Shown: positions 10,972-16,464 of the stretch, one piece after another
Numbering within the stretch: position 1 is the stretch's first letter
Layout: each line of letters opens with the position of its first letter
DNA from: a virus
Virus record (IMG/VR): IMGVR_UViG_3300020371_000051
Span: 1-25,216 of that record
Length of the DNA: 25,216 bases
Reading direction: 5' to 3' (one strand)
Program-made: the position numbers and the translations under genes
Notes under the pieces: generated by a model
What the model was told of the DNA's origin: nothing
Databases searched by the model: none
What the model saw: the letters and a program-made list of their open reading frames with translations, nothing else

Positions 10972-13900
10972 TTACTTCTTAGTGATGGTGGATGATACAG
11001 TAATATTTACTGTTTCTGTTGGTGCAACATCTGCACCCAACTCGAAGTTGATTCTAACTTCATTCTGTGGAGTAATTTCAAAGGTTGGGATGATGAGTTG
11101 TACACCAGTTCTCAAGTTTCCATACTCAGTATGATATACATCAGTTGTATTATTTGTAACACCAAACTCAATAAACTCACTCTCACCTGTTGTTGGGTTG
11201 GTTGCAATAACAACTGTCTTGGATCCTGCATTGGTTGCAGTACCATATATGACAGAGTTGCCATTATTAGAAGTACCTTTGACTAGGGAAATCTTCTCTG
11301 TTAGAATCTTGACATCAGCAAGTTCAAACTCTTTTAGATCTCCATCAAATACCTTGACTCCAGTGAATGTGCCAGTTCCAAATGTTGTGTTGAAATATAC
11401 ATCACCCTGGTTGTCCAATCTTAGAACAGGGTCTACAGTTAGACCACCAGATAATCCAAGATCAAAGTATTGCTTGGATGTATGTAAGAAGGTAGTGTCT
11501 ACCGCAGTGTTGTCTAGTGTAGTTTCTGCATTGTTGAATGTCATCAAGTTTGCAGTAATTTCAAACTGGTTGCTTGTCTGAGATCTAATAGTATCTACAG
11601 AGAAGAAGTCCATAGCAGTTGTGGTCAACTGTACGGTATTGTTTCCATCATTGTAGAAGTACAGGATGTTCTCATTTGCACCAGGAGATGTCTCTGGGAT
11701 GATATATGTGTTTTGATCAACGTCTTTGACGCCACCAAGAGATCCCCAGTTAGTTCCATCATAACCTTCATATAGTTGGTCACTGGTGTTGAATCTAATA
11801 GAACCAACTTCAGCAGCACCTCTATCTGCTGTAGTACCAGTAGGAATGACCAGTGTTGTATTGGTATCAATCTTGACTTTCTTGCCAGGATTTGGTCTGA
11901 TTAGAAGATCGTTGACATCAGTAGAGATTACGTTGTCTAAGAATCTTAGTTCTCCACTAACAACCAGTGGAAGACCGCCAAGTTTGCCGATTCTGAGTTC
12001 TTCGATATCTTCAAACTCTAGTGGTGCAACAGCAAGACCCCAGAAAGTAAGAACCGCAGAACCATTTGGTTGTGCTCCAGTGGTATGAGTTGGTTCGTTA
12101 CCAGTAGTAGCAGTTGTACCTGCGGTGGTTACCTCATATAGATTGTTTTTGTACTTGAGATATTGACCTAGTGTTACTGGAACATTAGCATTGTATTGCG
12201 TATAAGCAGGTGCCAGAACATTGTTAGAACGAATCTTCTTCATGTTCTGGAACTCCAGGTGCTGTGGAGTTACCTTAATGGTGTTGACATTATCATTGAT
12301 AAACCATAGTGTGTTATCATTAGCACCGATCGTTTCTTCTGCTAGAATGTAGGTGTTACCGTCTAGGTCTCTAACACCACCAAGCGAAGACCATGTAGTG
12401 GTTGATACACTGTATCCTTCATACTGACTTGTTTCTGTATTGAAACGGATACAACCATCTCTTACAATGCCAGGTCCAGGTCTTTCTGAAGTGTTACCAG
12501 CAGGAACTGCAAGTGCAGTAACTGTATTTGTATGTACAATTCTACCTAAGTCAGGAACAAGAGTAATATCTTGAGTATTCTGAGATGTGATAGATGTTGT
12601 AGCAGATTCAATAAGTAGGTTTGCACCAACACGTAGTTCTGGAGATTCAACATATCCAGTGGTTGTTATGTTACCAGTAGCACCAGTAATAGCGAGTTGG
12701 GAACCAAAGTTGAATGCTAGACCAGTGAAATTGATACTGTCTAGTGTTGGTTGCTGAACTGTCAGTTCTAAGTTTCCAGCAGCAGGTTGGAGTAGTGGAG
12801 TTGTTACACTAGTAGTAGCAGCAACTGTTGTAGATGCAAGTGCATTGATTGTAGCTTCTGGCGACGAGATATCTTGAGTCGTTAGAAGGTTGCAGGTAAA
12901 CTCACCTGTCAGGACTTCACCTTTGACAATTTGTTCTGTGGTTACATCAGTAACTAAAATCTCAAGACCAGTACCAAATGTCTTTGGATTATTTGGATCA
13001 ATAGTTAGAGTTGCTTCATCATTATCATCTCCACCCTCATTGACATGAGCAGGATCCTCTGTAGCACAGTAGTAATACAGAGTTGGGGTGGTTTCAGTAA
13101 TCTTGATTGTTAGATCTTGATCTGTTCTAGTAACACCCGTAGTGTACTCAGCACCCTTGACAGTTACTACAACATCTCCAGCAGTTGTGGGTGTATTATT
13201 AAGTTTCAGTGTGGTTCCGTTTACAACTTCCTCAATTAGAGTTCCATCTGCTAAGATGCCATCACCAGATTCTTTCTCAACTTCCATTCCAGCAAGCATA
13301 CCAGTCGTGCTTGCAACAATAATATTTTTAGATGTTGTAGAAAGGGTTGTGCTTACACCTTCAAATCTACTTGGACCCCATTGTCCATCTCTAAACTGAG
13401 ATAGAGCAAAGATGTGTGATCCTAGTGATCCATCTTGTAAATCAAACTGATAAGAGTTACCAGCATACATGGTCCACGATGGTGTCATTTGAGGACCGTT
13501 GCCATCGTTTAGATCAATGAAGAATCTATACTCTAGTGTTGCTGTATCAATGTCGTAACCAACAGCAGGAGCACTATCATTTACAAGAACATCTCCATCA
13601 GCAAAACCAAAGGTATCGATAACAATATTAGTAATATTGCCGCCAGATGTATTGACTTTTCTAACAGTAACAGGAGTTCCTGCATCGTTTACAGTATCGA
13701 CTGTTAGGACAATGTTATCTGCAGGAGTAGCACCGCCAACAGCAGCACCAGCAAGGGTAATTGTATCGTTTACTGCGTAGAAAGATCCTTCAGATCCTGT
13801 TGTAATAACTGCAGAAAGAACAGCACCTGTGTTGTCTCTTTGTACATCAAATGTAGCACCAGTACCATTTCCAGATGTACTAGTTTGTGCAACTGCAGTA

Positions 13901-16464
13901 TATACACCATCTGCTGCTCCAGCAACTGTTGTAGAAACTGTTACTGTAGATGCAAGGATAGATCCACCAGCATCTCTTACTTGATCTCCTACAGAGAATG
14001 TTGCAGCAGGGATTACATTACTTACAAAGTCGATAATATCAACTTCAGCATTTGTTACTGCGTAAACTTCTGGTTGTACAAGGTCAAATGCATTGACTGT
14101 CAGTGTATCACCTTGAGAGTATCCATTACCACCATCAATAACAGTTACTTCGCTGATTACACCAAGTGTACCAACTGTATATTGGAATCCTGAACCACCA
14201 CCATATTCTGGTTCAAAGTTTACAACCATTGCACCAGCAACAATTGGTGCAATAGACAAAGTAACTTCTGTTGCGCTTACAATAGCAGTAACAGTTGTTC
14301 CAGCAATAATATTTCCTGTACCACTTACATACACAACTTCCATTCCAGTTGTGATGCCAGAAGTATCTGGTACAGTGAGGTTTGTTAGATTTTGATTTGT
14401 AACTCTCAGGTCTGCATTACCAGGAACTGTTGGTGCTTCAGAAATCGTAAACTGAGTTGCGCTATCAACACTAACAACAACAGCTCCACCAGGAATTTGA
14501 CCAGGATTATTAATATTTTGAATTAGATCAACTGCGTCACCAACTCCAACACCAGCAGTAGAAGGAACAGTAATCTGTGGACTTCCTGCTTCAATCGTAG
14601 AAACGGAGATAGCAAGGTCGTTACCACCAGATCCAGGTTGAGCACCAGACTGCCCTCCAAGCGATCCTCCAGGGATATAGAGCGTGTCTCCTGGTAAGTA
14701 TCCAGAACCAGCATTGACGATGGTTACAGACTCATAGAAAGTGTTTCCACCACCGCTATTGACAACAACGTTTACAGTCAATCCAGAACCATTACTGTTC
14801 AGAGTAGAGACTAAAACATTTGAATATGTGGTATTGGGACCAGCAGCATTACCAGTATATTGAATTGCAGTAACACCAGCATTAGATGTAAATGTTACGC
14901 CTAAGAATTCAATTTCTCCTCTAGCATATGTGTTGACATTGTTGACCGCAGTTGCTAGTGTGAGTTGATCTCCAGTCTGATATCCTAGACCAAAATCTGC
15001 AATACCATCTAACTCATCAATAGATCCAAAGTTTCCACCAAGAGTATAGGCAAAACCAGAACCTTCTACCCCTGCTTGTAAACTGTTAGCATCATAGAGA
15101 TCTAAAGGATCTACAGACAGAACATCATTTAGTTGATATAGACCATCACCACCATTTGAGATGGTAACCGTCTCAATCTCACCACCAAGTTGATCTACAG
15201 TCATAGAGAATCCAGACTGTGATGGACTTGGATCGGTTAGAGTAATCTGACCACCCATATTTGGGTGAACACTGCAATTGTAGTACAGTGTGTTATTATT
15301 GGGATTTGTTGGTACTGTAAATGTAATGCGTTTAGTTGTAGCAGCAAACCACCCAGCAAGCCATGCTGTTCCTGTTACTACAGATCCATCCAATTCATAA
15401 ACAACACCATCTGCTGCATCAATCAGACCATTAGTATCGTTGAGTGCTGTTCCGATGTAGAATGGGTGTGAGACATTGTTAGAATTGTCTACTGTAAAGA
15501 TATAAGTCTTTCCTTTTAGAAGACTGAAATCTCCACCAAGAGCACCGTCAATAAAATATTTGTTACCCAAAGAAGATGTAATAACAAATGTCTGCGTTCC
15601 AGAAGTAGTAATACTTCCAGTTAGAACATCTCCTACAGTATATTGAGAAGTAACTGATACAAACTCACTACTGTCAACTCCACCAAATTGCTGAACACCA
15701 CCATTTACAACACGAAGGTTACAGAGCATTCCAGCACCATTACCACCTGTCATCGGGATACTCTTCCAGATACCATCTGGATAGTTAGAACCAGATGTGA
15801 CAGTAGCACCAAACAGACTGACCTCAATCTGTGCTTCCATGCCACTGCCGCTACCACCAGTCAGGGAAACATTATTATATGTTCCAGGATAGTAGTTAAT
15901 ACCAGCATTAGTAACAACACCAGAAATTTGTGGTACTGTGAAATCAATCAGAGCACCACTACCATTGCCACCAAGCAAAGGAATGTTTAGATAAGAACCA
16001 GGAGTGTATCCAGTACCACTATTAGAAATAGCACCTTGGAAACCATCAACAGTAATACCTAAGAGAGCAGAGTCGCCAGTACCACCAATAGCAGGGATGT
16101 CTGTGTAGTCACCACCATCATAGTTTGTACCAGCATTTGTGATTGACAAGAACAAACTGTCAAGACTGTTCTTCTCAATGATAAAGTCTTTGTAATACTT
16201 GGTTGAAGTAGAAGACAAGTCAGCAAGTTTTTTGCTCTGACTTGCAAATCCAAGTACGCCATTACTGGACCTGTAGATACCTAAACTGGAGTCATTTACA
16301 AACGCTAGAGATGGCAGAACAACTGTACCATCTCCAAGTTTCAAATTACCAGTAGATAGGTCAGACCCACCACTACTGATTTGGAATAACTGAGAACCGA
16401 GTTGATTGATTTTTACCCTTTGTTGTTCAAAGGTATCGGTTCTTGCGACGTTAACTGCTGGCAT
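10972..16464 (-). CDS. Beta-rich virion structural protein with cupredoxin-like domains (1830 aa)
   Basis: This 1830-residue protein starts MPAVNVARTDTFEQQRVKIN. Residues about 52-65 (SLAFVNDSSLGIYR) resemble a common fibre motif. Residues 106-252 hold four repeats of about 35 residues (TNAGTNYDGGDYTDIP, SNSGTGYTPGSYLNIP and so on). Residues about 300-411 form a cupredoxin-like domain: H333 in VSHPF, then YYNCSVHPNMGG with C397, H400 and M403. Further GY modules follow (VTIVNAGSGY, VTVIDGGNGY). Two beta modules of about 55 residues lie at 629-747, and a third at about 1046-1105 interrupts a second, degenerate cupredoxin-like domain (H1017, C1133, H1140, no Met). Residues about 1329-1413 and 1547-1627 are a duplication (IRFNT...YEGY...SLGGV.D.D.NTYI). 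The start overlaps the 68-aa gene by 14 nt, and GAGAG lies 10 nt upstream. Its exact place in the particle is unknown. Confidence 0.93.
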   Translation of the reverse strand: MPAVNVARTDTFEQQRVKINQLGSQLFQISSGGSDLSTGNLKLGDGTVVLPSLAFVNDSSLGIYRSSNGVLGFASQSKKLADLSSTSTKYYKDFIIEKNSLDSLFLSITNAGTNYDGGDYTDIPAIGGTGDSALLGITVDGFQGAISNSGTGYTPGSYLNIPLLGGNGSGALIDFTVPQISGVVTNAGINYYPGTYNNVSLTGGSGSGMEAQIEVSLFGATVTSGSNYPDGIWKSIPMTGGNGAGMLCNLRVVNGGVQQFGGVDSSEFVSVTSQYTVGDVLTGSITTSGTQTFVITSSLGNKYFIDGALGGDFSLLKGKTYIFTVDNSNNVSHPFYIGTALNDTNGLIDAADGVVYELDGSVVTGTAWLAGWFAATTKRITFTVPTNPNNNTLYYNCSVHPNMGGQITLTDPSPSQSGFSMTVDQLGGEIETVTISNGGDGLYQLNDVLSVDPLDLYDANSLQAGVEGSGFAYTLGGNFGSIDELDGIADFGLGYQTGDQLTLATAVNNVNTYARGEIEFLGVTFTSNAGVTAIQYTGNAAGPNTTYSNVLVSTLNSNGSGLTVNVVVNSGGGNTFYESVTIVNAGSGYLPGDTLYIPGGSLGGQSGAQPGSGGNDLAISVSTIEAGSPQITVPSTAGVGVGDAVDLIQNINNPGQIPGGAVVVSVDSATQFTISEAPTVPGNADLRVTNQNLTNLTVPDTSGITTGMEVVYVSGTGNIIAGTTVTAIVSATEVTLSIAPIVAGAMVVNFEPEYGGGSGFQYTVGTLGVISEVTVIDGGNGYSQGDTLTVNAFDLVQPEVYAVTNAEVDIIDFVSNVIPAATFSVGDQVRDAGGSILASTVTVSTTVAGAADGVYTAVAQTSTSGNGTGATFDVQRDNTGAVLSAVITTGSEGSFYAVNDTITLAGAAVGGATPADNIVLTVDTVNDAGTPVTVRKVNTSGGNITNIVIDTFGFADGDVLVNDSAPAVGYDIDTATLEYRFFIDLNDGNGPQMTPSWTMYAGNSYQFDLQDGSLGSHIFALSQFRDGQWGPSRFEGVSTTLSTTSKNIIVASTTGMLAGMEVEKESGDGILADGTLIEEVVNGTTLKLNNTPTTAGDVVVTVKGAEYTTGVTRTDQDLTIKITETTPTLYYYCATEDPAHVNEGGDDNDEATLTIDPNNPKTFGTGLEILVTDVTTEQIVKGEVLTGEFTCNLLTTQDISSPEATINALASTTVAATTSVTTPLLQPAAGNLELTVQQPTLDSINFTGLAFNFGSQLAITGATGNITTTGYVESPELRVGANLLIESATTSITSQNTQDITLVPDLGRIVHTNTVTALAVPAGNTSERPGPGIVRDGCIRFNTETSQYEGYSVSTTTWSSLGGVRDLDGNTYILAEETIGANDNTLWFINDNVNTIKVTPQHLEFQNMKKIRSNNVLAPAYTQYNANVPVTLGQYLKYKNNLYEVTTAGTTATTGNEPTHTTGAQPNGSAVLTFWGLAVAPLEFEDIEELRIGKLGGLPLVVSGELRFLDNVISTDVNDLLIRPNPGKKVKIDTNTTLVIPTGTTADRGAAEVGSIRFNTSDQLYEGYDGTNWGSLGGVKDVDQNTYIIPETSPGANENILYFYNDGNNTVQLTTTAMDFFSVDTIRSQTSNQFEITANLMTFNNAETTLDNTAVDTTFLHTSKQYFDLGLSGGLTVDPVLRLDNQGDVYFNTTFGTGTFTGVKVFDGDLKEFELADVKILTEKISLVKGTSNNGNSVIYGTATNAGSKTVVIATNPTTGESEFIEFGVTNNTTDVYHTEYGNLRTGVQLIIPTFEITPQNEVRINFELGADVAPTETVNITVSSTITKK
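11004..11011 (-). promoter_or_regulatory. Weak candidate late promoter core AGTAAATA
   Basis: AGTAAATA lies within the last codons of the 1830-aa gene, 34 nt before the ATG of the 166-aa gene. The spacing is like that of the other candidates, but only the TAAATA core matches and the site is coding, so it could be chance. Confidence 0.25.

Follow-up and report, generated by a model that had tools for sequence, protein, structure and literature searches.

The closest described counterparts of the domain considered here were the cupredoxins plastocyanin, azurin and amicyanin (PF00127, Copper-bind), with which it shared the His...Cys-x2-His-x2-Met order and the short amicyanin-type loop C-x2-H-P-x-M-x-G. 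These cupredoxins are small periplasmic electron carriers, whereas the domain in our window (the whole 25,216-base virus sequence that was analysed) was embedded in an 1830-residue virion protein. Moreover, the window copy fell under Pfam detection, had a His-Cys distance of 64 residues and showed an axial Gln in many of its orthologues. Another related system was the green cupredoxin AcoP from Acidithiobacillus ferrooxidans (PDB 7z3b), to which the window domain was matched best in the PDB by Foldseek. Its ligands H85 and C159 (PMC4059628) had a long separation similar to that in the window domain. However, AcoP differed in its loop (C-x6-H-x4-M) and in having a cytochrome c oxidase partner, and it was only 16% identical to the window domain. 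In the copper nitrite reductase TsNirK, the T1CuC site was built from Cys428, His431 and Met434 (PMC6400189) with the same spacing as C397, H400 and M403 of the window protein, and the T1CuN site had an axial Gln like a part of the orthologues described below. On the other hand, the TsNirK sites belonged to enzyme domains with additional copper centres.

Metal sites have also been reported in phage tails. Namely, the T4 gp37 tail fibre had iron sites (HxH), and marine phages have been proposed to adsorb in the manner of a Trojan Horse (PMC11705849). Similar to these cases, the putative metal site of the window belonged to a phage tail protein from a marine setting. However, the gp37 sites contained iron with octahedral His coordination in trimeric fibres, whereas the window had a single-chain, Cys-containing candidate copper-type site. 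Additionally, T4-like cyanophages were known to encode a cupredoxin, the plastocyanin gene petE (PMC3037559), but this was an auxiliary metabolic gene whose product was made in the infected cell, outside the particle. In the literature that we covered, which was incomplete and mostly without subscription journals, no paper was found that connected phage tails with cupredoxins or blue copper. Type-1 copper sites were well known, but their systematic presence in virion proteins appeared to be unreported. To our knowledge, copper in virus particles has apparently never been measured.

The structural gene block and its two candidate sites

The minus strand of the window carried four genes in the order P0002, P0001, P0004 and P0003 (Table 1). 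The P0001 protein gave a strong profile match to phrog_6005 (1738.6 bits), and its C-terminal part was similar to phrog_32294, a baseplate wedge subunit. The gene order around the P0001 counterpart was the same in Synechococcus phage S-H9-2 and in phage Syn1, both of which belonged to Kyanoviridae. Therefore, the window was recognised as a structural block of a T4-like cyanophage. Many of the 'virion structural protein' labels were presumably based on the virion proteome of phage S-SM1. In that proteome, 41 proteins were measured by Sullivan et al. 2010 (PMC3037559).

Table 1. Genes and features on the minus strand of the window
Feature	Length or residues	Positions	Strand	Description
P0002	2710 aa		-	DUF4815
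68-aa ORF	68 aa	16657-16451	-	Between P0002 and P0001
P0001	1830 aa	10972..16464	-	phrog_6005, virion structural protein of T4-like cyanophages
Copy A	291-412	15229..15594	-	Cupredoxin-like domain with His-Cys-His-Met candidate site (homology, model)
H333	333	15466..15468	-	First His, putative ligand, directly before a strand
C397	397	15274..15276	-	Putative Cys ligand, end of the penultimate strand
H400	400	15265..15267	-	Second putative His ligand
M403	403	15256..15258	-	Putative axial ligand; Gln in one orthologue clade and in P-RSM6
Copy B	~980-1146	13027..13527	-	Diverged second copy; H1017, C1133, H1140, E1143
P0004	166 aa		-	phrog_5449
P0003	3321 aa		-	

An earlier note, made from the DNA letters alone, had proposed an amicyanin-like copper motif at 15232-15567. 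This span corresponded to residues 300-411 on the minus strand, and homology extended the domain slightly on both sides (copy A in Table 1). All four proposed ligands were located precisely at the claimed residues of a real open reading frame, H333 within SNNVSHPFYIG and C397, H400 and M403 within TLYYNCSVHPNMGG. Thus, the type-1 ligand set His-Cys-His-Met (or Gln) was present in the right order, with Cys, His and Met on one loop of the amicyanin type (C-x2-H-P-x-M). However, the earlier note overlooked the second copy in P0001 as well as the recurrence of the domain in many marine-phage tail proteins.

Among its 1830 residues, P0001 contained only 5 Cys, 9 His and 15 Met. The two putative sites together held 6 of its 14 Cys and His residues, namely H333, C397 and H400 in copy A and H1017, C1133 and H1140 in copy B.

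Copy B was split by an inserted segment of ~70 aa and had the loop spacing C-x6-H-x2-E. The C-x6-H part of this spacing was common to AcoP, where it was reported as unusual (PMC4059628). Copy B was kept in every full-length close orthologue, and its ligand residues were absent from S-H9-2. Judging from its residues, copy B was possibly an altered metal site with an axial Glu.

Conservation of the candidate ligands

When P0001 was shuffled with its own composition, the C-x2-H-x2-M motif together with an upstream His appeared in 2 of 20,000 sequences. Conservation among homologues argued against chance more strongly than these shuffles. Homologues were collected from viral contigs with peptide patterns that did not contain any ligand residue, which gave 80 loci, and the iterated profiles produced 85 distinct domain segments. 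In an alignment of 56 domains, the only fully invariant columns were F33, H43 (H333 of P0001), P44, Y105, C107 (C397) and H110 (H400). In a larger alignment of 89 domains that included bacterial relatives, the H, P, C and H were still invariant and the M was present at 90% or more. After grouping into 31 clusters (<60% identity), positions H43, C107, H110 and M113 of the domain were among the eight most conserved ones.

Among 127 distinct homologous domains, the quartet was HCHM in 112 and HCHQ in 12, so that His/Cys/His with Met or Gln was preserved in 124 of them. The earlier note had named non-conservation of the four residues as a refutation, and this clearly failed. The three exceptions (YSQM, NGTL and NATA) had lost all of His/Cys/His. 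These were spare second copies from proteins that kept an intact one, and none of the 127 domains had a single loss among the three residues. Such joint loss argued for a single cooperative site. The genome set was biased because one of its search patterns contained Cys and His. The viral set alone consisted of 53 HCHM and 11 HCHQ domains, i.e. 64 of 64 had His/Cys/His with Met or Gln. Additionally, a profile search, which was not pattern-selected, found the domain in 17 of 185 genomes from the class of the SAR86 bin; the ten loci read from this set all had His, Cys, His and Met (10/10) at greater divergence.

Thus, it was vanishingly improbable that the motif had arisen by chance in a virion protein of low complexity. 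We excluded this explanation based on the shuffles and on the invariance over the 56 and 89 homologous domains, and found no point supporting it; the ligand pattern described in the earlier note was confirmed. A fold retained without its metal, which had been listed there as an option, became disfavoured since a metal-free relic would not be expected to keep or lose His/Cys/His as a set.

The axial position was more variable. Among the close orthologues, it was Met in the window and in L002-L005 and Gln in the others, where the loops were CSVHPNQGG and CSVHPLQGG. Gln replaced Met in 11 orthologues and, as a separate case, in P-RSM6, a distant relative with the loop CHHHTGQGD. Parsimony on a FastTree tree required four changes in total among Met, Gln and lost states, which would fit two losses and two replacements of Met by Gln. 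Gln was documented as a natural axial ligand of type-1 copper in TsNirK T1CuN and in stellacyanin (PMC6400189), and so this was a change that a working copper site would tolerate.

The same variation could be viewed as a tuning of potential if the site served as a redox element, with Cu(I)/Cu(II) cycling acting as a trigger or as oxidant protection on the particle. Indeed, blue copper proteins transfer electrons through a His2-Cys-Met/Gln site, and the potential of a type-1 site is expected to be lower when its Met is replaced by Gln. However, neither a redox partner nor a second redox centre was found among the window proteins searched, and the rest of P0001 read as an ordinary long structural protein. 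We considered this role possible but unsupported and very unlikely.

Predicted fold and relationship to blue copper proteins

The AlphaFold2 model of the window domain (pLDDT 88.5, pTM 0.84) was a beta-sandwich. In this predicted structure, the placement of H333 and C397 relative to the strands (Table 1), together with M403 preceding the last strand, was the cupredoxin arrangement. The best Foldseek match of the model in the PDB was AcoP (E 2.2e-4, prob 1.00, TM 0.53), and plastocyanins were matched at E 8e-3. Peptidylarginine deiminases were matched too, and we take their N-terminal region to be cupredoxin-like. Thus, the window model leaned towards the cupredoxin-like fold proposed in the earlier note, although with less force than the conservation spoke for the ligands. 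The model of a compact family member (pLDDT 97.6) did not have any PDB match better than E 0.1, and its 50 best PDB matches contained no cupredoxins and were largely immunoglobulin-type beta-sandwiches. Because of this, the cupredoxin fold, an eight-stranded Greek-key beta-sandwich, was considered probable rather than certain for the window domain.

The BFVD matches to the window model included A0A481Z6J5 (Pithovirus LCPAC302, E 4.7e-6) and A0A481YVH3 (Marseillevirus LCMAC201, E 2.4e-5), both of which were 'Beta-sandwich' proteins. These structural matches hinted that a domain of the window type may occur in giant viruses too.

At the sequence level, hmmsearch of the PDB with the 56-domain profile placed azurins first (E 2e-3), one of them with a CTPHPFM loop. 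Plastocyanins, pseudoazurin and copper nitrite reductases followed among the lower matches, and antibody chains were among the weaker ones. With the 89-domain profile, the top five matches were plastocyanins (E 4e-4 to 1e-3), and the best three were aligned across most of their length. Hence, the profile comparison recommended in the earlier note ranked plastocyanins and azurins at the top with their ligands aligned. In the HMM-HMM comparison (hhalign) with 31 cellular PF00127 domains, the score was 35.1. Shuffling the columns 100 times gave scores that averaged 9.3 and reached at most 15.2, and the reversed alignment scored 17.7. After masking the four ligand columns, the score was 17.2, which was near noise; therefore, the sequence link to cupredoxins mostly consisted of the ligand columns. 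PF00127 was matched at E <= 0.01 by 7 of the 89 family members, and the bacterial relative L111 scored above its curated cut-off (23.1 vs 21.2 bits). The window domain had no Pfam match of its own at the curated cut-offs, including PF00127 and PF25489, and a single-sequence PDB search with the window copy gave no useful match. Altogether, these profile comparisons lent statistical support to a sequence relationship with the cupredoxin superfamily. A recent capture of the cyanophage petE gene was unsupported, as the likeness to plastocyanin was at the profile level only.

The main sober rival was a non-copper role of the same residues. They might hold another metal (e.g., Zn) or form a metal-free hydrogen-bonded core in a beta-sandwich that resembled cupredoxins at the loop only. 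This would fit the compact family model without a cupredoxin match, the origin of the HMM-HMM signal mostly from the ligand columns and the Glu at the axial place in copy B. However, it is copper sites and not zinc sites that typically have Met or Gln as their fourth ligand, and the joint loss of His/Cys/His again argued for one cooperative site. We thus regarded the non-copper role as unlikely.

Occurrence of the domain family and its proposed function

In the cyanophage isolates P-SSM4, S-CAM8 and P-RSM6, the domain was present in gp10-like proteins of the baseplate, in tail-fibre genes and at the C-terminus of gp9, which was annotated as 'baseplate wedge tail fiber protein connector'. There were up to four domain matches per isolate genome. 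In the gp9 connectors of P-SSM4 and S-CAM8 (L082:6082-7311 and L086:3124-4344), the motif HPFRIQ...YYQCT(L/I)HA(A/S)M was intact, and the N-terminus of the P-SSM4 protein remained T4 gp9/gp10-like. Members of the family matched phrog_677, 708, 693, 30742, 6005 and 32294, all of which were annotated as tail, baseplate or virion families. The window domain matched 245 phage records, all from cyanobacterial phages, and using the compact member as a query added pelagiphages, Methylophilales phages and other marine phages. For example, pelagiphage Baldr had the domain in an annotated tail fibre. In a Pelagibacter-binned contig (L099:4570-6420), the domain was located close to the C-terminus of an encoded T7-type tail fibre (PF03906). 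Since this protein started with the T7 tail-fibre domain, the matches to 'Pelagibacter' genomes were at least partly phage DNA.

Some of the cellular relatives, from SAR86, SAR92 and Woeseiaceae bins, had lipobox-like N-termini. One lipoprotein-like SAR92 protein (L120:5191-6276) had a phosphatidylethanolamine-binding (PBP) domain fused to the copper-type domain. Further relatives were secreted gammaproteobacterial proteins, one of which (L262:1324-2661) passed PF25489 with 36.8 bits against a cut-off of 27. Thus, apart from PF00127, the named Pfam domain closest to the wider family was PF25489 (At5g54830-like, named after a plant protein). A copper site is possible in the PF25489 family as well.

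The location on tail fibres, gp9 connectors and baseplates, together with the related domains on secreted or lipid-anchored bacterial proteins, would also suit a copper bait, where the loaded domain is recognised by copper-uptake or outer-membrane receptors of the host in analogy to the iron 'Ferrojan/Trojan Horse'. Metal-bearing tail fibres were already known (T4 gp37) and such adsorption was proposed for marine phages (PMC11705849). However, instead of forming a fibre tip, the domain was often located inside proteins of >1000 aa, and a copper receptor would be needed in each of such different marine hosts as Prochlorococcus, Pelagibacter and Methylophilales. We also know of no such receptor. 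The bait was therefore possible but unsupported, and we considered it quite unlikely.

The explanation that we favoured as reasonably probable was a copper-binding cupredoxin-like module on the virion tail with a structural or adhesive role. Namely, residues 291-412 would form a cupredoxin-like beta-sandwich with a type-1 site of the amicyanin loop type, in which one copper ion is bound by H333, C397, H400 and M403. The carrier, a large T4-like cyanophage protein of the tail or baseplate, would probably face the host, and marine phages would use modules of this family on proteins of the baseplate, the fibre connector and the fibre. Most likely, the metal would lock the loop-rich end of the beta-sandwich, and the locked domain could then serve as a rigid and stable adhesion or connector module on the particle exterior. 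The analysis demonstrated the residues, how they are conserved, the likeness in sequence to blue copper proteins and the occurrence in families annotated as virion structural proteins; the copper itself, its uptake and this stabilising or adhesive role are inferred. Several observations counted against the copper module: the TM to AcoP was only about 0.5, the window domain lacked its own Pfam match, the compact member model had no cupredoxin among its best matches and the HMM-HMM score was near noise without the ligand columns. Additionally, phages assemble in a copper-poor cytoplasm. The copper might be acquired by the preformed site after release, or from host copper proteins. We considered it likely that the purified window domain binds copper. 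A broader model, in which marine phage particles are copper proteins with a widespread functional type-1 module, Met/Gln tuning, a Glu-type second site and copper involved in host contact or triggering, was tentative and rather doubtful.

The analysis suggests which fold a recurring, unannotated domain of the phrog families listed above probably has, and it proposes a chemistry that can be tested. If the site binds copper, then abundant ocean viruses would bear a blue-copper-type centre at the place where the particle meets its host, and colour, EPR and ICP-MS would become a simple handle on marine phage adsorption proteins, which are hard to study. In this case, copper would join the iron already known in phage tails, virions might act as ligands of a trace metal that is both scarce and toxic, and copper may be carried routinely by virus particles.
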